DNA of 64,000 nt from Chloroflexota bacterium (lineage in GTDB: Bacteria > Chloroflexota > Anaerolineae > Anaerolineales > Villigracilaceae): the NCBI GenBank assembly GCA_016235445.1, contig JACRLB010000036.1, positions 62,001 through 126,000 of the forward strand, read 5' to 3'. Position numbers and translations under genes: made by a program. This document shows, piece after piece, positions 19,316 to 55,236 of the stretch. The first letter of the stretch is position 1, and each line of letters starts with the position of its first letter. The notes below the pieces were generated by a model. The model did no database searches. It had not been told where the DNA came from and worked only from the letters and a program-made list of their open reading frames with translations.

Positions 19316-19402
19316 GGGGAGGTGCCAGAGTGGTTGAATGGGATAGTCTCGAAAACTATTGTAGGCTCCGGTCTACCGAGGGTTCGAATCCCTCCCTCTC
19401 CG
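19316..19402 (+). tRNA. tRNA-Ser (anticodon CGA)
   Basis: The acceptor arm GGGGAGG pairs with CCTCTCC. The anticodon arm is ATAGT-CTCGAAA-ACTAT with CGA at 19350-19352. A long variable arm (class II) and the T arm GAGGG-TTCGAAT-CCCTC are present. Class II form with anticodon CGA reads the serine codon UCG. The 3' end is GCA, so the full CCA is not encoded. It lies 39 bases after the beta-CASP nuclease gene. Confidence 0.96.
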
Positions 19403-19403
19403 C

Positions 19404-19446: not shown

Positions 19447-19591
19447 ATAGACATATTGCCTGATGCAAATATTTCTGGCATTCTTCCACGCTCAAGGAGC
19501 GGGTTAGGCGTAATTGAGCCAGCTTGGAATATATCCCCTCGAAACCGAATCAACTTCCAGCGGGGCGCGAGGCGTTTTCCGACATCCAACT

Positions 19592-19721
19592 TTTCAACTT
19601 TCACCCTGCATCCTTTCCATTGGTCTAATTCCGCAACTAAATTTTTCTGGAGCGCTCATGAGCAAAAAACTAAGAGGCAACCAGATTCGCCAGGACTCAT
19701 AAACTTCTTTGCCAAGTACGG
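19592..19721 (+). pseudogene. Decayed duplicate of the alaS promoter and 5' end
   Basis: This stretch repeats 20354-20493: TTTCAACTTTCACCCTGCAT, the -10 region, GGAGCGCTCATGAGCAAAAA and the first codons (MSKKLRGNQIRQDS versus MSKKLTGNQIRQDF). In this copy the -10 box is TCTAAT instead of TATAAT, and one base is lost after CAGGACT, giving an early stop. It therefore looks like a non-functional relic. Upstream, 19447-19591 shows nothing recognisable. Confidence 0.88.
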
Positions 19722-19728
19722 ATAGAGG

Positions 19729-19734
19729 TATAAT
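19729..19734 (+). promoter_or_regulatory. -10 box of the DUF6883/DUF4926 pair
   Basis: GGTATAAT ends six bases before the ATG at 19741 with no ribosome site, so transcription should begin at or next to the start codon. Confidence 0.55.
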
Positions 19735-19740
19735 TTTCTT

Positions 19741-20073
19741 ATGAGATTGACCAATGCCATCCGCGCTGTTGTGGACATCGAAAAGTTGCGAGACTATTGT
19801 TTGAGCGAAAGTCATCCGCGTGGAAAACATAAGGCGCGCGTTTTTGCAACGGCTTTGGGCTTGACCGCAAGTGATGTTTTGGAATTGCGAGACGCTGTTT
19901 TATCTGCCGTTCAAACGGAAGAAGCGGTTGCCGGCGAACGTGATGAATATGGTCAACGCTATATCGTGGATTTTTCCATGAGGCGGCATGGCAACGAAGC
20001 AGTTGTCCGTAGTGTGTGGATTGTTCGGCAAGGCGAAGATATGCCGCGTTTGACCAGTTGTTATGTTTTATAG
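19741..20073 (+). CDS. DUF6883 domain protein
   Basis: A 110-residue soluble protein whose pattern (AIRAVVDIEKLRDYCL, SHPRGKHKARVFATALGL, LRDAVLSAVQTEEAV, DEYGQRYIVDF, VVRSVWIVRQGEDMPRLTSCYVL) matches what I know as DUF6883. No catalytic residue is established; the conserved R-GKHKARVF and W-IVR-GED-PRL stretches are likely functional. It sits in a small cassette with a DUF4926 gene, 10 bases apart, between a dead copy and the live copy of the alaS 5' end. Members often travel with DUF4926; a toxin-antitoxin-like role is a guess. Confidence 0.75.
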   Translation: MRLTNAIRAVVDIEKLRDYCLSESHPRGKHKARVFATALGLTASDVLELRDAVLSAVQTEEAVAGERDEYGQRYIVDFSMRRHGNEAVVRSVWIVRQGEDMPRLTSCYVL

Positions 20074-20083
20074 GAGAGTTGAT

Positions 20084-20299
20084 ATGAAACAAAAAGTTAA
20101 TTTACTCGATGTTGTTGCATTAACCCAGGAAATCCTTGACCGCGACTTGTCCCTTGGGCAGGTTGGCACTGTGGTGGAGCTACTTGCGCCTGATGTGTAC
20201 GAAGTGGAATTTACCGATAACGAAGGACGCGCCTTCGCTGAATTGGCTTTGCGCGCAGACCAGTTATTGGTCTTGCATTACGAACCTGCGATGGCGTGA
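20084..20299 (+). CDS. DUF4926 domain protein
   Basis: A 71-residue protein starting MKQKVNLLDVVALTQEIL with a strong ribosome site AGGAGAG. The pattern LLDVVALTQ ... LSLGQVGTVVELLAPDVYEVEFTDNEGR ... ALRADQLLVLHYEP matches DUF4926, a small beta-barrel-like domain. It follows the DUF6883 gene by 10 bases and is closed by its own terminator, so the two form a self-contained bicistron. Acting as partner or antidote to the first protein is an inference from gene order. Confidence 0.78.
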   Translation: MKQKVNLLDVVALTQEILDRDLSLGQVGTVVELLAPDVYEVEFTDNEGRAFAELALRADQLLVLHYEPAMA

Positions 20300-20318
20300 C
20301 ATTGATTTTGTTTCCTTC

Positions 20319-20353
20319 AAGTCCCGAATCTGAAACAGGCTCGGGACTTTTTA
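20319..20353 (+). terminator. Terminator of the DUF6883/DUF4926 cassette
   Basis: AAGTCCCGA/TCGGGACTT stem followed by TTTTA, 20 bases after the DUF4926 stop and immediately before the repeated alaS leader begins. Confidence 0.85.
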
Positions 20354-20392
20354 TTTCAACTTTCACCCTGCATCCTTCATCCTTTCCATTGG

Positions 20393-20398
20393 TATAAT
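20393..20398 (+). promoter_or_regulatory. -10 box of alaS
   Basis: GGTATAAT upstream of alaS with about 30 bases of leader, including CGGAG before the ATG. The duplicate copy upstream has this box mutated. Confidence 0.6.
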
Positions 20399-20428
20399 TC
20401 CGCAACTAAAAATTTTTTCGGAGCGCTC

Positions 20429-23251
20429 ATGAGCAAAAAACTAACAGGCAACCAGATCCGCCAGGACTTCATTGATTTCTTCGTCGAGCACGGACATACC
20501 GCCGTGCCGTCCATGTCGCTTGTACCGGGCGGCGACGCTACGCTTCTTTTCACAAACTCGGGCATGGTGCAGTTCAAAGATGTCTTCATCGGCACCGACA
20601 CCAAACCCTACAAACGCGCCGTCGACTCGCAGAAGTGTATGCGCGTGGCAGGCAAGCACAACGACCTTGAAGACGTGGGGCGCGACGACACGCATCACAC
20701 CTTTTTTGAAATGCTCGGCAACTGGTCGTTTGGCGATTACTACAAAAAAGATGCCATCGCCTGGTCATGGCAGTTGCTGACCGATGTCTGGGGCTTGCCC
20801 AAGGATAGGCTCTACGCCACCTGTTTTCAGGATGATAGCGTAGCGTACCCTGTGGGCAAAGGCAACGTGCCGCAAGATGATGAAGCTGCGAACATCTGGA
20901 AGGAACAGCCTGGCTTCGACCCTGCGCATGTTCTCTTCTTTGGGCGCAAGGAAAACTTCTGGCAAATGGCAGAGTTCGGCCCATGCGGCCCGTGCTCCGA
21001 AATCCACTTTGACCTCGGCGAAGAGCGCGACAACCTGCGCGGCACAGACCACGTCTGCGGCGTGAACGGCGAATGCACGCGCTACCTCGAACTGTGGAAC
21101 AACGTTTTCATTCAATACAATCTCTTCGAAGATGGCCGCCTCGAACCGCTTCCCGCCAAGCACGTTGATACGGGCATGGGCTTCGAGCGCATCGTCTCCG
21201 TTTTGCAAGGCGTCGACTCCAACTACAAAACCGATCTCTTCACAGGCTCGCTCGACGTTCTGCGCTCACTCACAGGTAATTCAGTTTCCGAGATGGAAGC
21301 AAACTTCACGCCCTACCGCGTCATCTGCGACCACGCCCGCTCCGCCGCCTTCCTCATCGCCGACGGCGTCGTCCCCGGCAACGGCGGCCGCAACTACGTC
21401 ACCCGCATGATCATCCGCCGCGCCGCGCGCTTCGGAACCAAGATCGGACTCAACGAACCGTTCCTCTCCAAAGTTGCCGAAGCGGTGATTAAAGAATATG
21501 GCGATTTTTATCCCGAACTCGAAAAGAACAAGGCGACCATTTTAGACAACCTGACTCGCGAAGAAGTCCGCTTCGCGCGTACCGTTGAAGCTGGCACTAA
21601 CCATCTACAGAATCTACTCTCCGACCTTCGCTCCCAATCTCCAATCTCCAATCTCCAATCTCTCACCCTCGATGGACACCGCGCCTTCGACCTCTACTCC
21701 ACCTACGGCCTGCCCTTCGAAATCAGCCGTGACATCGCCCGCGAACAGGGACTCGACATTGACGAAGCAGGTTTCACTGCCGCGAAGAACGAACACAGCA
21801 AAGCCTCTGGCGGTGGCAAAGCCATGGGCAAACTCGGCGGCGAAGATTCTGAATACTTTGCTAACATCCTGAAAGACCTGCAAGCGAAGGGCAAGTTAGG
21901 CAAAGATGGTGTGGAGTATGACCCGTATAACGGCGCACAAGTAGACAAGTACACAGGTCTGGAAGTGCTCGCATTGATCGTGAATGGCGAATCGGTTTCC
22001 TCCGCTTCCCTCGATGATCAGGTCGAAGTTATTTTGCCGAAAACTGGCTTTTATCTTGAGTCTGGCGGCCAGGTCAACGACACTGGATTCATAAGATTCG
22101 CGCCGAGCGGGAGTGCAGTCGAAGCGGGCTGGCAAATCGAAGTGACAGGAATGCGCCGCGCTTCGGCTGGCGTGATTGTCCACATTGGCGAAGTCATTTC
22201 TGGTCAACCCAAAGTGGGGGACAAAGCCATCGCCGAAGTGGACGAAATCCGCCGCCACAATATCATGCGCAATCACACCGCCACGCATTTGCTCCACAAG
22301 GCATTGCATGAAATCCTCGGCGACCATGCCCGTCAGGCGGGTTCCCTGGTCTCGCCCACACACCTGCGCTTCGACTTCACCCAACCCGAAGGTATGACCC
22401 CCGAACAAATTGAGCGCGTCGAGAAGATGGTCAACGAAGCGATTGCCGCAGATATGCCCGTGGTCAAAGTGACCAAGTCTCTTGACGAAGCCAAAAAAGA
22501 AGGCGCGATGGCGCTCTTCGGCGAAAAATACGGCGAGACGGTGCGGACGGTCTCTATTCTGGAGTCGGACAGCTTGCTGTCCGACAAAACGCAGGAGCAA
22601 GCTCCTGCACTTCAGAGTAAATATTCCTACGAACTCTGCGGCGGCACACACCTCGACCGCACTTCAGACATTGGCGCGTTCATCATCGTCAGCGAAGGTT
22701 CGGCGGCGGCGGGCATTCGCCGCATCGAAGCCGTCACTGGCCGCGGCGCGTATGAATTGATCGCGAAAAGATTCAAGACCCTCAAACAAACCGCAGGCAC
22801 GTTGAAGTCTTCCATCGAAGAAGTCCCGTTCAAAGTTGAATCTTTGCAAGATGAAATCTCCGAACTCAAAAAAGAACTCGCCAACCTGCGGACACAACAT
22901 GCCCTCACCACCTTCCAGTCTCTAATCTCCAATCTCGAACTTGTTAAAGATATCCATGTCCTCGCCGCCGAAATCCCCGACTCGAACGTGGACACCCTGC
23001 GAATGCTGGCCGACAAGTTCCGCGAGAAATATCCCAAAGCGGGAGCGGCTGTCCTCGTAACGGGATCAACCGTCATCGCGGTCGTGACCGAGGACCTCGT
23101 CAAGCGCGGACTCAAGGCTGGCGATCTCATCACAGGCATCGGCGGCAAAGGCGGTGGACGTCCCAACCTGGCGCAGGGAAGTTTGCCAGATGGAAATGTC
23201 AAAGATGCGCTGGATAAATTGGCCAAGGTTGTGGAAGAGAAATTGAAATAA
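20429..23251 (+). CDS. alaS: Alanine-tRNA ligase
   Basis: Charges tRNA-Ala with alanine. The class II core (GGDATLLFTNSGMVQFKDVF, QKCMRVAGKHNDLEDVG, HHTFFEMLGNWSFGDY), the editing domain with HTATHLLHKAL and CGGTH zinc residues, and the C-terminal DHH-like domain (GAAVLVTG, ITGIGGKGGGRPNLAQG) are all present. At 940 residues it is about 60 longer than usual. The excess comes from four repeat-derived inserts in frame: SQSPISNLQSL, APSGSAVEAGWQ, ESDSLLSDKTQEQAPALQSK just before the CGGTH strand, and QSLISNLELV. Confidence 0.97.
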   Translation: MSKKLTGNQIRQDFIDFFVEHGHTAVPSMSLVPGGDATLLFTNSGMVQFKDVFIGTDTKPYKRAVDSQKCMRVAGKHNDLEDVGRDDTHHTFFEMLGNWSFGDYYKKDAIAWSWQLLTDVWGLPKDRLYATCFQDDSVAYPVGKGNVPQDDEAANIWKEQPGFDPAHVLFFGRKENFWQMAEFGPCGPCSEIHFDLGEERDNLRGTDHVCGVNGECTRYLELWNNVFIQYNLFEDGRLEPLPAKHVDTGMGFERIVSVLQGVDSNYKTDLFTGSLDVLRSLTGNSVSEMEANFTPYRVICDHARSAAFLIADGVVPGNGGRNYVTRMIIRRAARFGTKIGLNEPFLSKVAEAVIKEYGDFYPELEKNKATILDNLTREEVRFARTVEAGTNHLQNLLSDLRSQSPISNLQSLTLDGHRAFDLYSTYGLPFEISRDIAREQGLDIDEAGFTAAKNEHSKASGGGKAMGKLGGEDSEYFANILKDLQAKGKLGKDGVEYDPYNGAQVDKYTGLEVLALIVNGESVSSASLDDQVEVILPKTGFYLESGGQVNDTGFIRFAPSGSAVEAGWQIEVTGMRRASAGVIVHIGEVISGQPKVGDKAIAEVDEIRRHNIMRNHTATHLLHKALHEILGDHARQAGSLVSPTHLRFDFTQPEGMTPEQIERVEKMVNEAIAADMPVVKVTKSLDEAKKEGAMALFGEKYGETVRTVSILESDSLLSDKTQEQAPALQSKYSYELCGGTHLDRTSDIGAFIIVSEGSAAAGIRRIEAVTGRGAYELIAKRFKTLKQTAGTLKSSIEEVPFKVESLQDEISELKKELANLRTQHALTTFQSLISNLELVKDIHVLAAEIPDSNVDTLRMLADKFREKYPKAGAAVLVTGSTVIAVVTEDLVKRGLKAGDLITGIGGKGGGRPNLAQGSLPDGNVKDALDKLAKVVEEKLK
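21631..21668 (+). repeat. CCAATCTCCAATC word repeat inside alaS
   Basis: Four near-tandem copies of CAATCTC/CCAATCTCC encode SQSPISNLQSL between the aminoacylation and editing parts. The same word family occurs at 22917-22937 (alaS), 63514-63555 (mfd), 46731-46745 and 62241-62265. Confidence 0.8.
22559..22612 (+). repeat. Paired palindromes inserted in frame in alaS
   Basis: GTCGGACAGC/GCTGTCCGAC (22564-22585) and GCAGGAGC/GCTCCTGC (22591-22608) stand side by side. They add about 20 residues directly before YSYELCGGTH, in the editing domain. A similarly built pair lies between genes at 41763-41858. Confidence 0.8.
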
Positions 23252-28357: not shown

Positions 28358-28425
28358 CAAAATTTTAATAACGAGTGCGGATTATAACGCACGTGGCTTT
28401 CCTGTCTGTTCACAAACATGGCAAC

Positions 28426-28604
28426 GGGAGCATGCAAAGGTTGTCAGCCTTCCCCTTTTCCCTCACCCCAAGTATGAAGACTTTTCGCCGTGTCGACTCC
28501 CCCCTCTCCCTGAGGGACGTGTGCCCGTAAGGGTAGAAGGCAGGGTGAGGGTTTGCACAGCCCAGCGAACAATCTATCTCCCATGACAACCTTTACATGC
28601 ACAC
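28426..28604 (-). mobile_element. MITE-A copy 3 (179 bp, long subtype)
   Basis: Inverse orientation. One end reads GGGAGCATGCAAAGGTTGTC (two changes from the usual GTGTG) and the other TGACAACCTTTACATGCACA. It is flanked on both sides by CATGGCAAC (28417-28425 and 28605-28613), a perfect 9-bp duplication. It carries an extra block of about 18 bp containing CACGTCCCT and ACCCTTACG-type sequence, shared with copy 5. Confidence 0.88.
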
Positions 28605-34013: not shown

Positions 34014-34051
34014 GTCACTCTCTCTTTCTTTACTTCGATAGTGTCTCGAAT

Positions 34052-34213
34052 GTGTGCATGCAAAGGTTGTCAGGATTCCCCTTTTCCCTCACCCCAAGTA
34101 TGAAGACTTTTCGCCGTGTCGACTCCCCCCTCTCCCTGAGGGAGAGGGCAGGGTGAGGGGTGTTCACAGCCCAGCGAACAATCTACCTCCCCTGACAACC
34201 TTTGCTTGCACAC
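34052..34213 (-). mobile_element. MITE-A copy 4 (162 bp) with perfect 9-bp target duplication
   Basis: Inverse orientation, ends GTGTGCATGCAAAGGTTGTC and CTGACAACCTTTGCTTGCAC. GTCTCGAAT is present at 34043-34051 and 34214-34222, directly touching both ends; this copy fixes the true borders. It lies in the divergent space between the amidohydrolase and mnmA. Confidence 0.93.
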
Positions 34214-50815: not shown

Positions 50816-52810
50816 TCATGGAGTGGGCAGGAAATAATAAGCGACGAACAATTCGGGTCGCGAGAACTGGAAGGCATAGTTGCCGCTGTAGACGGTCAAT
50901 AGGTCTGATACACCGTCAGTATCATCCAATTCGAAGCGGGAACGCAGGTCAATTACGCCGTTCCTGGGGAACTGGTTGATGGCGGTTTTAAAGAATACAC
51001 AGCGATAGAAGCCGTCGACAAGGATGGTGGTCTCGAAGTTGCAGGCGCCCTGATCCGCTCGGTTTTGGAAATCGATCAATTCCAGGTTGGAACTGTTGCC
51101 AAAGTACGGCTTGTTGAGCTCTGTGATGAAATCACCATGAGTGGTGAGCGGGTTGGTACCTGTGACACTAACCTGCTTGACGCGATAGTTCACAGCAGCG
51201 ATCACAGCCTCGGCCGGCAGTGGGTCGGGGCGAGTGTCGAAGCGGCTGAAGAAGCGATAGTCGCGGTTGTTAACATCATCACCGGCGCTCATTGTGATGT
51301 CACTGCTGTTCATGCTACCGCCCAGGTTGGCTGTACTGGTGGATTCAAGTACCCAACCGTCTGAGGCGGGAAGCGAGAAGTAATACTTGCGGATGTATTG
51401 GAAGCGCTGGCTGTTGTCGGTGCTGGTGGAGGCCTGATTGAATACACCAGGCCGGCCGACACTTTCTGCCGCATCACCGGGAATGGTGACAGTGGCTGTA
51501 CATTCCTTGGTCATTTCGAGGAAGGTTACTGTATAGGTTGTCCCACTGCCGCTGATATTCACTGTCGGAGCGCAGTTTGTGTTGAAAGATTCATTTACAT
51601 CGGAGGAATCAAAGCCCGACACTGCTTCGGAGAAAACGGCGGTAAAACTCAACAGGCGGGTGTTGGTTGGATCCACCTGACCCACGGATTGATTTATGGT
51701 GACTGTTACCGGGGTGGAATCTGTAACATCTGTCAAGACCGTGGGGCCGCCCACAGTAGGGAAGCCAGAGGCAGCGATATTGTAGTTGCCGTGTGCAATT
51801 TGAGAGCCACCTGGTGCAGTGACTGTGCCATCTATGGTGAAGGAGCCGTTCGTGCCAGCGGAGACGCCGGTGTAATTGCAGGTGACTGTGCCTGAACTCA
51901 GGACGCAATTTACCGCGTCTGAGACCGAGGTGAAGGTGACACCGGTGGGTTGGGTGGCTGTGATTGTCGGGTTAATTGAACTTCCCGACCCATTATGATA
52001 TGTGTAAGTATAAGTAATGGTTGTTCCAGTTTCAATGGTGGCTGGGCCTGCGGCTTGGATGGCGGGACCGGCAATATTGCCATCAGTGATTTCATCTACG
52101 TACACATAACCGGGATGCCCACCCAATGAACAGCCTGCGGCGGTGATCTCGATGGTAATGTTGTCGCCGGCGTTGACGGGGTGAGCCACACTGGAAACTA
52201 GATCAACATACTGCCAGTTGATATATTTCCAACTATCTGAACCAGAAAAAGTTGGTCCATCCTGCCAGTTCTTACCTGGCTCGTTCACATAGGATGAGAA
52301 ATCATAGATCACATCATTGCCATTGCTAGTATTTATGACCCGTACGCGGAAATAAGGTTTTTCCTCTGCTGTGTGCGGAGTGGCAACCGGATCAACCATG
52401 ACCGCCGCGTAAGTAAAGCGTATGTGAGATAAACTGTCGCTGGGATCAAGCGCTGCGGAGACGGTCTGGGTAATGATATTTGCGTTTTTCGCAAAACCAC
52501 CGCCGGAGTAGGAAGCATCGCTGTTGACCCTTGCTGAGTAATCTCCATACGCTGGGTAAAGGAGATTGCCGCTAGTATGGCCGTCGGAAAAGCTCAAGGG
52601 TCCTGAACCTGAAGTGCCGACAATCACGCTTAAGTCGGTTCCACCCACACCATGAGAGGCGCTGAATCCATTGTTAATGAATGTGCTTTTGATCCAGCCG
52701 GTGAAATCCCCAGTTTCAAAGTTGCCGTTGCTGATTGCCGCAAGCGCGGCTGTGATTACGAGCAATGCGCTACATAGCGCTAAAAGTGTTGAAAAACTCA
52801 ACTTTTTCAT
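50816..52810 (-). CDS. Secreted multidomain surface protein, paralog A
   Basis: A 664-residue protein with a Sec signal (cleavage near ALAAIS) and then a GNFETGDFTGW carbohydrate-binding-like opening with repeated glycines. Next is the EKPYFRVRVINTSNGNDVIYDF beta region, a DUF11-type repeat (TYTYTYHNGSGSSINPTITATQPTGVTF), an Ig-like repeat (LSFTAVFSEAVSGFDSSDVN), and a C-terminal module beginning DGWVLESTSTANLGGSMN. It ends in FSRPELFVAYYFLPTP. It is about 80 percent alike to the next gene by eye. Likely exported to the surface; ligand unknown. Confidence 0.8.
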   Translation of the reverse strand: MKKLSFSTLLALCSALLVITAALAAISNGNFETGDFTGWIKSTFINNGFSASHGVGGTDLSVIVGTSGSGPLSFSDGHTSGNLLYPAYGDYSARVNSDASYSGGGFAKNANIITQTVSAALDPSDSLSHIRFTYAAVMVDPVATPHTAEEKPYFRVRVINTSNGNDVIYDFSSYVNEPGKNWQDGPTFSGSDSWKYINWQYVDLVSSVAHPVNAGDNITIEITAAGCSLGGHPGYVYVDEITDGNIAGPAIQAAGPATIETGTTITYTYTYHNGSGSSINPTITATQPTGVTFTSVSDAVNCVLSSGTVTCNYTGVSAGTNGSFTIDGTVTAPGGSQIAHGNYNIAASGFPTVGGPTVLTDVTDSTPVTVTINQSVGQVDPTNTRLLSFTAVFSEAVSGFDSSDVNESFNTNCAPTVNISGSGTTYTVTFLEMTKECTATVTIPGDAAESVGRPGVFNQASTSTDNSQRFQYIRKYYFSLPASDGWVLESTSTANLGGSMNSSDITMSAGDDVNNRDYRFFSRFDTRPDPLPAEAVIAAVNYRVKQVSVTGTNPLTTHGDFITELNKPYFGNSSNLELIDFQNRADQGACNFETTILVDGFYRCVFFKTAINQFPRNGVIDLRSRFELDDTDGVSDLLTVYSGNYAFQFSRPELFVAYYFLPTP

Positions 52811-53125
52811 ACTTTCTCCAAAGAAAAAAAATAGATTGAATTTGAACGATTATATTGAAACTGAAAGTTCATAGACGTTTCTTGTAGATTTACCTCCGAT
52901 AATAAAGTTCTTAAAAATTAGACAGTACTTAAGTTTCAATTTATCAGGTTTCTTCTCGTTTTTTACTTTCAGAATTGATAGATATGATTACATTTTTGTT
53001 TGTGGTCTTGCATGCATACGACAGGATTAACCCGAATAGTAATCGTTCGTAAAATAGAGGATGGTTTTAATCGTCGGAGATTTTCTTTCCCTGTGTTGCT
53101 ATCATCGGGGGAGAAAAATTTTAAC

Positions 53126-53185
53126 AAAGAAATAAGCAGATACCCCTCGAAGGATTAATTTCGAGGGGTATCTGCTTATTTCTTT
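53126..53185 (-). terminator. Terminator of secreted paralog B, 26-bp perfect stem
   Basis: AAAGAAATAAGCAGATACCC continues to a 26-base arm that pairs perfectly across an 8-base loop (GGATTAAT). It is followed by GTTAAAATTTTT on the minus strand. The remainder of 52811-53238 shows no gene. Confidence 0.85.
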
Positions 53186-53238
53186 CACATGAGTTCAGGC
53201 TTTTATTACCTCATGACTTGCATATCTCACTGAATAAT

Positions 53239-55236
53239 TTAAGGAGTGGGCAGGAAATAATAAGCGACGAACAGTTCGGGCCGCGAGAACTGGAAGGCAT
53301 AATTGCCGCTGTAGACGGTCAATAGGTCGGATACACCGTCCGTGTCATCCAATTCGAAGCGGGAGCGCAGATCAATCACGCCATTTTTTGGAAATAAGTT
53401 TAGAGATACTTTGAAGAATACACACCGATAGAAGCCATCAGGCAAGAGGATGGTGTCAAACTTGCAGGCGCCCTTGTCGGCTAGGTTTTGGAAGTCGATT
53501 AATTCTAAGCTGGAATTGGTGCCGTAATAGGGCTTGTTGAGTTCAGTAATGAGATCGCCGTGCGTAGTGAGGGGATTGGTGCCGGTAACATTAACTTGCT
53601 TAATGCGGTAGTTTACCACTGCGATTACGGCATCCGCGGGTACCGGGTCGGTGCGGGTATCGAAGCGGCTGAAGATGCGGTAGTCGCGGTTGTTGGCATC
53701 GTCGCCCACACTCATGGTGGTGTCGCTACTGTTTATACTGCCGCCAACGTTGGAGGTGGCGGTTGATTCTAGTACCCAGCCATCGGAATTGGGAAGCGAG
53801 AAATAAAACTTCCGAACGTACCGGAATCGCTGGCTGTTATCTGTGCTGGTGGAAGCCTGATTGAGCACACCTGGTCTGCCGGCGCTCTCCGCTGAATCAG
53901 CCGGAATAGTGACCGTTGCCCGACACTCCCTTTTCATATCAGTGAGCGATACGTAATATGTTATTCCGTCTCCGGAATCGGTGACCGTTATCGTGGGCGC
54001 GCACGGCACCGAGAGAACTACATTTATATCCGTGGAATCAAAACCGGTCACGGCTTCGGAGAAAACGGCGGTGAAGTGCAACTGGCGGATGTTGGTTGGG
54101 TCAACTTGACCTGTGGACTGATTGATGGTGACAGTCACTGGAAGGGACGGTACATCTGTAAACACTGTTGGGCCGCCCACTGTAGGGAAGCCGGTTGCAG
54201 CGATGTTGTAATCACCATGTGCAATGGTTGTCCCAGCAGCTGCCAAGGCAATGTCTCCAGAGATTGTGAAACTACCAGAGCCACCTGCAACCATGCCGGT
54301 ATAGTTACAGGTAACCGGGGCCAGGCCGCTGCAATTTATTGGATCGCCTAGGGTTGTAAAGGTAACATTGGTGGGCGGGTTGATAACTATAGTTGGGTCA
54401 ATTGAACTGCTTGAGCCGTTGTTATATGTATATGTGTAAGCAATCGTTGAGCCGGCAGTCGCGGTTGCTGGTCCGCTTGCTTGAATGGTTGGGCCGGCAA
54501 TGTTGCCATCGGAGATTTCATCCACATAAACGTAGCCAGGATGACCCCCAAGAGAACAACCCGCAGCTGTAATTTCCAGCCTGATGCTGTCGCCAGCATT
54601 GACCGGATGAGCTACACTGGAAGCCAAGTCTACATAGGTCCAATCCAAATATTGCCAGAAATCGGCCCCGGCGAATGTTGGGCCATTTTGCCAATTTTTA
54701 CCGGGTTCGCCAACGTAAGAGGAGAAATCATACAATACATCGTTTCCGTTGCTAGTGTTGATGGCGCGCACGCGAAAGTAAGGTTTTTGTTCGGAGGTGT
54801 GAGGTTGGTCAACAGGATTAACCATAACCGCGGAATAAACAAAGCGCACATGCGCCAGGCCATCCCCAGGGAGCAACACTGCCGAATACGTTTGAGAAAT
54901 GATGTTTGCATTTTTCGCAAACCCGCCGCCCGTGTAAGAGGCGTCGCTATTGACGCGGGCTGAGAAATCTCCGTAGGCCGGGTACAGAAGGTTCCCGCTG
55001 GTGTGTGCGTCGGATAAACTCAATGGCCCTGCGCCGGAAGTACCGACAATTACGCTTAAATCTGAACCGCCTGCCCCAAGCGCCGAGCTAAACCCATTGT
55101 TGATCCCTGTGGTTTTAGTCCAGCCGGTGAAGTCACCGGTTTCAAAGTTGCCATTGCTGATTAATGCCAGCACGGATGTGACGACGAGTATTGCGCTGAA
55201 AAGTGCCAGAAGAGATGCCATACTGAATTTCTTCAT
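53239..55236 (-). CDS. Secreted multidomain surface protein, paralog B
   Basis: A 665-residue tandem paralog of the preceding gene with the same layout: signal (ALISNGNFETGDFTGW), a beta region with EQKPYFRVRAINTSNGNDVLYDF, a DUF11-type stretch (IAYTYTYNNGSSSSIDPTIVI), an Ig-like stretch (LHFTAVFSEAVTGFDSTDIN) and a C-terminal DGWVLESTATSNVGGSINSS module. Differences cluster in loops (GAVTATAGS, LSVPCAPTITVTD), fitting an old duplication followed by drift. Confidence 0.8.
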   Translation of the reverse strand: MKKFSMASLLALFSAILVVTSVLALISNGNFETGDFTGWTKTTGINNGFSSALGAGGSDLSVIVGTSGAGPLSLSDAHTSGNLLYPAYGDFSARVNSDASYTGGGFAKNANIISQTYSAVLLPGDGLAHVRFVYSAVMVNPVDQPHTSEQKPYFRVRAINTSNGNDVLYDFSSYVGEPGKNWQNGPTFAGADFWQYLDWTYVDLASSVAHPVNAGDSIRLEITAAGCSLGGHPGYVYVDEISDGNIAGPTIQASGPATATAGSTIAYTYTYNNGSSSSIDPTIVINPPTNVTFTTLGDPINCSGLAPVTCNYTGMVAGGSGSFTISGDIALAAAGTTIAHGDYNIAATGFPTVGGPTVFTDVPSLPVTVTINQSTGQVDPTNIRQLHFTAVFSEAVTGFDSTDINVVLSVPCAPTITVTDSGDGITYYVSLTDMKRECRATVTIPADSAESAGRPGVLNQASTSTDNSQRFRYVRKFYFSLPNSDGWVLESTATSNVGGSINSSDTTMSVGDDANNRDYRIFSRFDTRTDPVPADAVIAVVNYRIKQVNVTGTNPLTTHGDLITELNKPYYGTNSSLELIDFQNLADKGACKFDTILLPDGFYRCVFFKVSLNLFPKNGVIDLRSRFELDDTDGVSDLLTVYSGNYAFQFSRPELFVAYYFLPTP

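Follow-up and report, generated by a model that had tools for sequence, protein, structure and literature searches.

How small addictive units move without a transposase is, to our knowledge, still an open question, and one locus in a Chloroflexota genome raises it in a particular form: why is the start of alaS, the gene for alanyl-tRNA synthetase (AlaRS), present twice, with two small genes encoding DUF6883 and DUF4926 proteins in between? The locus lies in a 64,000-nucleotide stretch of contig JACRLB010000036.1 (hereafter, the window). We favor, with a probability of roughly 0.6, the explanation that DUF6883–DUF4926 is a toxin–antitoxin (TA)-like unit whose insertion into the 5′ part of alaS left a target duplication of at least 131 bp. 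Such a route of insertion has rarely been described; an uncharacterized TA-like pair would apparently have taken it at several genes.

The start of alaS is duplicated around a two-gene insert

The 5′ end of alaS forms a direct repeat whose left copy (T1, 131 bp) and right copy (T2, 141 bp) are 84% identical over 141 alignment columns (E = 5 × 10−40; Table 1). T2 is the live copy, in which TGGTATAAT is present and which opens into the intact gene, whereas in T1 the −10 element reads TCTAAT instead of TATAAT (19624–19629) and a 1-nt deletion leaves a frame of 14 codons followed by a stop. The interval between the copies is a 631-bp insert that holds the two genes and a terminator-like hairpin, without a transposase or integrase. 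The genes were assigned to PF21814 (DUF6883; E = 6 × 10−29) and PF16277 (DUF4926; E = 1 × 10−19), the former being a 110-aa open reading frame (ORF) with its own start; a TATAAT hexamer also stands just before DUF6883 in nine of the ten other genus copies examined. The first-pass annotation of this stretch had described both a doubled alaS leader with a decayed first copy and two small genes with their own −10 box between the copies, and our analysis bears these descriptions out. It had further credited the cassette with a terminator of its own, a claim that fared less well. Because the hairpin, which is followed by a T run 3′ of DUF4926, aligns together with the sequence running into alaS with the region upstream of alaS in relatives (77–80% identity over 201–218 columns in L018, L019, L022, L030, L034, and L035, the L034 alignment beginning within the hairpin), it probably belongs to alaS rather than to the cassette.

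Table 1 Features of the alaS locus in the window
Feature	Position	Strand	Description
tRNA-Ser(CGA)	19316..19403	+	lies after the upstream beta-CASP nuclease gene, in relatives as well
Leader stretch	19517..19591	+	directly before live alaS in the closest relative, G031; before the dead copy here
Left copy T1	19592..19722	+	alaS promoter and first ~22 codons, decayed and with a frameshift
TATAAT upstream of the pair	19729..19734	+	
DUF6883	19741..20073	+	predicted BECR-fold RNase (tRNase-like) toxin
DUF4926	20084..20299	+	predicted SH3-like barrel, likely antitoxin
Terminator-like hairpin	20319..20354	+	resembles the terminator upstream of relatives' alaS
Right copy T2	20354..20494	+	live alaS promoter (TATAAT 20393-20398) and first codons
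alaS	20429..23251	+	intact 940-aa alanyl-tRNA synthetase

Chance, an assembly error, or a dispersed repeat might also yield such a doubling, and part of the leader (20350–20390) does correspond to a motif found at seven other places in this genome. However, T1 and T2 differ by 12 substitutions as well as indels and are therefore not an assembly echo, alaS codons are present in both, and the same layout recurs at a second alaS locus (L167, described below). This reading is thus already contradicted, and we give it almost no weight.

Relatives carry a single alaS start

The genus search covered 57 genomes, including that of the window, and an alaS search across genus and order gave a match in 54 of 61 genomes, from which 30 loci were fetched. 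Twenty-nine of these came from other genomes of the genus; 28 were tested, L016 being dropped as its contig ends 1 bp upstream. A single alaS start was found in all 28 by a test that detects the two copies of the window locus and those of L167, its positive controls, and DNA comparison with T1 and T2 likewise gave one place in 28 of 28. No match to either pair protein was found at the 28 loci within the 230–1500 bp of upstream sequence available. TGGTATAAT is retained in 27 of these relatives. A single start and no pair protein across the relatives agree with the earlier proposal of an insertion at the alaS start followed by decay of the old one.

The closest relative, G031, whose alaS is 98% identical in its N-terminal part, carries upstream of the gene a 45-bp stretch across the end of DUF4926 (96% identity) and the same terminator, the two being separated by 135 bp of inserted sequence that has inverted ends. 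The remainder of the pair is gone, a second alaS start is absent, and a different gene occupies the left flank. Given this remnant beside alaS, the pair probably stood there before the window and G031 lineages split. The first-pass annotation had held that a pair lacking a duplicated leader would speak against insertion; G031 retains its remnant without a second start, but with another gene on the left flank it does not make a clean case. The 135-bp insert is itself a small element with the ends GGGTGTGTTTCA and TGAAACACACCC and a repeated ATTGATTT target; one such element end also lies upstream of the pair in L099.

The arrangement in G031 lends some plausibility to a different history, in which the pair already lay upstream of alaS, the segment comprising the pair, terminator, leader, and alaS start was tandemly duplicated, and one pair was then lost. 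Such a history requires one duplication and two losses, and would have to be repeated in L167 and at other genes; moreover, pair loci have flanking repeats much more often than random places do (see below). We therefore regard tandem duplication as quite improbable.

A second duplicated alaS start occurs in another genus

The earlier suggestion that the pair would be found beside other genes was borne out, including at alaS itself in another genus. L167 (JAKEFL010000239.1, Anaerolineae) encodes an AlaRS 67% identical to that of the window and is ordered as about 33 alaS codons, a frameshifted DUF6883, DUF4926, a terminator, and live alaS. The genome appears to belong to the same family as the window, because a family-level search from it gave an alaS locus that matches the one in G026, a member of the window's genus, without any difference. 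A tree built from 550-bp sequences, drawn without support values, places the L167 pair as sister to the window pair.

That two sister pairs both lie at alaS is what one would expect if the pair, already joined to a donor alaS start, had been imported by homologous recombination in alaS, leaving copies that are donor–recipient hybrids; such an origin would also suit copies that are alike in the middle and different at their ends. Yet each dead alaS copy resembles the live alaS of its own genome, to which the dead copy is also closest, and import leaves unexplained both the first joining of pair and alaS and the footprint at unrelated genes. We consider homologous import unlikely, although a stronger contender than tandem duplication; these two are the rivals that remain for the alaS case.

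Direct repeats flank the pair at unrelated genes

DUF6883 and DUF4926 form a consistent pair, with DUF4926 directly downstream in 112 of 115 DUF6883 hits (113 loci, duplicates included). The order-wide search gave hits in 20 of 301 genomes, 19 of them above the family cut-off, and the genome scan provided 80 loci, the best 80 of 202 confirmed candidates. Under a strict rule, which asks for a repeat of at least 40 bp with each copy no more than 400 bp away, direct repeats flank 16 of 89 pair loci, including the window locus itself, compared with 7 of 594 random placements (Fisher p = 2 × 10−10, the placements not being independent). With one placement per locus the control fell to 1 of 97 (p = 4 × 10−5), and with the two alaS loci removed the pair still gave 14 of 87 (p = 2 × 10−4, one placement per locus); a single control gene, the nuclease, gave 0 of 23. 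A looser count with exact duplicates removed found a flanking direct repeat at 28 of 91 units, which count two loci twice, versus 17 of 258 random placements. No cross-match between the repeats of different loci was found at E = 10−3.

Nine of the 16 strict repeats are the ends of genes named by Pfam or AlaRS similarity: alaS (L009 and L167), thrS (L105), recR (L104), and the genes for a DUF5131 protein (L092), an epimerase (L186), WecG (L169), an HWE histidine kinase (L162), and an inositol phosphatase (L157). Among these, thrS and recR are usually essential or conserved. At L057, the repeated sequence is the end of a 237-aa gene whose zinc-ribbon matches are weak and fall short of the Pfam cut-off, and the L054 repeat reads like a gene start, with no full gene seen. 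The repeats are identical at two loci, L104 (41 bp) and L158 (48 bp). At L104 they abut a 579-bp insert that consists only of the two ORFs and 9 bp, again without a transposase or integrase: it starts 9 bp before DUF6883 and stops at the last codon of DUF4926, whose stop codon is supplied by the repeat. The evidence thus comprises a set of cases at different genes, with one insert as small as two ORFs. As a separate observation, both thrS at L105 and alaS in the window are targets, ThrRS and AlaRS share the tRNA_SAD editing domain, and DUF6883 is tRNase-like; the shared domain is probably a coincidence.

We infer that the unit is toxic and that it travelled as a whole with no transposase involved. 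In the window, a break or integration event most likely put it near codon 22 of alaS, with the target then present on either side of it; the right copy would keep alaS complete, and the left would be free to decay. An insertion lacking a long duplication would break alaS and hence would not be observed. Because insertions that break essential genes go unseen, repeats of gene ends, and with them an apparent rebuilding of genes, would be common among the cases found, which offers a simple account of how the start of an essential gene seems to be rebuilt. At a later time, the copies could recombine with each other and so excise or move the unit.

Several observations weigh against this explanation. 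Most pair loci (73 of 89) lack such a repeat; these could reflect age, another route, or vertical descent. The repeats at L102 and L149 look dispersed, with several copies (without both, 14 of 89), and those at L124, L158, and L184 were matched to no gene. In the window, substitutions between T1 and T2 cluster towards the cassette: the last 22 of 131 columns contain 7 of the 12 (p = 0.0007). L167 behaves alike, 7 of 8 falling in the last 42 of 89 columns (p = 0.02), with the cut points of both tests chosen after the data were seen. Such clustering is not expected if an exact duplication simply decayed. Likeness between the L167 copies is restricted to codons 3–32, the promoters and first codons differing, while the window repeat includes the promoter. 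These differing promoters, together with the crowding of substitutions in both alaS cases, hint that recombination in alaS helped the unit to spread or mixed the copies. The order in G031 (remnant, terminator, leader, alaS) further means that the window locus needs an additional loss of that leader from the right copy. Finally, the left flank of the window locus seems to have been rearranged as well: the tRNA-Ser gene beside T1 follows a nuclease gene elsewhere in the genus, and since alaS was not found in the 1.5-kb flanks of that gene fetched from relatives, a rearrangement probably ended just left of T1, with a breakpoint between about 19450 and 19517.

The pair occurs in arrays with other modules

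If the unit duplicates its target, a site without modules would have a single copy, and one array permits this comparison. In G074 (L194), there are three copies of the 3′ end of the 237-aa gene. Between the first and second lie a PIN gene and the partner upstream of it, between the second and third lie DUF6883 and DUF4926, and a restriction–modification (RM) gene of the BsuBI/PstI–Eco57I type follows the third. In G005 (L259), a gene 85% identical to the 237-aa gene runs straight into apparently the same RM gene, named in L259 by N-terminal similarity only, and is present once in the available sequence; this locus represents the site free of TA modules. In G080 (L193), four copies of a short stretch, 60–91% identical to a reference, separate a HicB-like gene (below the Pfam cut-off), the pair, and a PIN gene, and G032 (L269) carries DUF4926 alone with BrnT nearby. 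L194, L259, and L268–L271 belong to a hotspot next to an epimerase/GNAT region, where most gene names were assigned by eye. The hotspot contains TA, RM, and other modules that differ by species, along with residual 3′ ends of genes.

PIN loci of the genus, a second TA family, show tight repeats at 6 of 29 (30 fetched, one too short), a count with crude boundaries in which one repeat is 569 bp long and could be a gene paralogue and two are only 44–45 bp. Because PIN loci also show tight repeats, there is a hint that the footprint is not particular to the DUF6883–DUF4926 pair. One may tentatively extend this to a class of minimal, transposase-free mobile addiction modules, comprising the pair together with the PIN/VapBC and RM modules of the same arrays, which would spread across phyla, insert next to or into gene ends, duplicate ~40–180 bp of target each time, and build TA arrays serially; those within the rebuilt ends of essential genes such as alaS and thrS would become hard to delete. 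We find this broader claim possible but doubtful. Carriage by phage was ruled out, as no match was found in 50,697 phage records; 9 of 72,556 plasmid records gave a match.

DUF6883 is predicted to adopt the fold of tRNA-cleaving toxins

The predicted model of DUF6883 has a mean predicted local distance difference test (pLDDT) score of 96. Its top matches among solved folds are two contact-dependent growth inhibition (CDI) toxins, CdiA-CT Kp342 (6cp9; Z = 11.3, root-mean-square deviation 2.3 over 100 residues) and EC3006 (6cp8; Z = 9.3); RelE-like toxins come next, RelE itself at Z = 5.4, a level that the tool calls common. Kp342 and EC3006 are listed as BECR-fold toxins acting on uncharged tRNA-Ile in PMC9086364. 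By fold comparison, DUF6883 is thus predicted to share the BECR fold with toxins that cleave tRNA. Ten residues are invariant among 44 sequences (Y19, L21, H25, G28, K31, A32, F35, G71, R90, and W93). The DUF4926 model is an SH3-like barrel with weak matches (best E = 0.018), and DUF4926 is likely the antitoxin. At the sequence level, the DUF6883 profile matched PDB chains only at E = 0.16 or worse, and the DUF4926 profile matched none up to 0.1.

Disrupted copies bear on which partner is harmful. A match with a stop or split was found for DUF6883 in 6 of 96 loci (L053, L054, L092, L130, L151, and L167) and for DUF4926 in 2 of 91 (L136 and L157), and a broken DUF6883 and a broken DUF4926 never occur in one locus. 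As DUF6883 is broken more often, these small numbers lean slightly towards DUF6883 as the harmful partner. No report of toxicity or neutralization by either protein was found in the literature searched.

The first-pass annotation had proposed a TA-like or defense unit. The toxin-like fold predicted here favors the former part, whereas the latter found no support: PADLOC gave no hit for DUF6883 and one weak hit for DUF4926 (E = 0.014), and a defense system was rejected accordingly. NCBIfam gave no hit for the pair, and PHROGs gave weak hits only (best E = 0.025). The pair also draws attention to a toxin family that is predicted to cleave tRNA and whose partner is unusual.

The proposed insertion resembles that of some RM systems

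Integrative elements can rebuild the end of a gene, as do elements in prfC or tRNA genes, and the target gene is likewise complete after insertion here. Unlike such elements, however, the 631-bp insert has no integrase, and the repeat varies in sequence and length from locus to locus. Nor do the loci share related recombination sites as integron gene cassettes do; integron cassettes and element-end repeats were ruled out, the repeats of different loci being dissimilar.

A closer parallel is found in RM systems. Long target duplication at RM systems goes back to Nobusato et al. 2000 and Furuta et al. 2010, as cited in PMC3031569 and PMC3874152, and PMC3031569, PMC2654758, and PMC3874152 tell of it for RM systems. 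In PMC3031569, movement of PaeR7I was assayed by selecting survivors of plasmid loss and sequencing the junctions. According to PMC3874152, the mobility of RM and TA systems is commonly attributed to known carriers, yet some RM systems move alone, and some insert with long, variable target duplications on the order of 100 bp. In the literature found, largely outside subscription journals and available in part, no TA module was described as moving by long target duplication. In both settings, a self-contained addictive unit lies between long, variable direct repeats of the target; movement of the RM units is reported to be accompanied by rearrangements and not linked to any known mobile element. 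As with long-target-duplication insertion, the unit is absent from the site in relatives, copies of the target lie on both sides, and the empty site has one copy. The present case differs in that the unit is DUF6883–DUF4926 and several of the repeats restore ends of resident genes.

The pair also resembles type II TA systems (RelBE, HigBA, and BrnTA), being a small two-gene operon of patchy distribution, with PIN and BrnT modules near some copies, a toxin fold in the DUF6883 model, and a weaker RelE match; this likeness is known here from sequence and model. DUF4926, by contrast with those examples, weakly resembles an SH3-like barrel. Similarly, although the predicted fold of DUF6883 is like that of CdiA-CT Kp342 and EC3006, it stands by itself as a 110-aa protein, has DUF4926 as its partner, and is not the tail of a CdiA exoprotein.

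Leader sequences and other repeats

Many relatives carry an Ala-rich leader ORF (e.g., MKQNLKQTVVAQAAAATCATCEPATA) followed by a terminator upstream of alaS (L013:1314–1444 and 19 others), and CGAACCTG, present in many of these leaders, can pair with CAGGTTCG of the terminator, so that the arrangement is likely an Ala attenuator. The ORF was found in 22 of 57 loci, two being duplicates. An alignment of the leaders (n = 20) is strongly conserved, with a double change in just one of 21 predicted pairs, and the leader pattern, allowing up to two mismatches, is absent from the window's genome. Two further ideas about this region were rejected: a known RNA element in the leader, since Rfam on eight loci found only tRNA above the gathering score, and fusion of the DUF4926 end to an Ala leader peptide, since homologues elsewhere have the same kind of end.

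Elsewhere in the window, 28423–28604 and 34049–34213 form a dispersed repeat pair with 89–95% identity, and 50820–54762 contains direct repeats spaced by ~2.4 kb (72–82% identical) that probably arose by tandem duplication.

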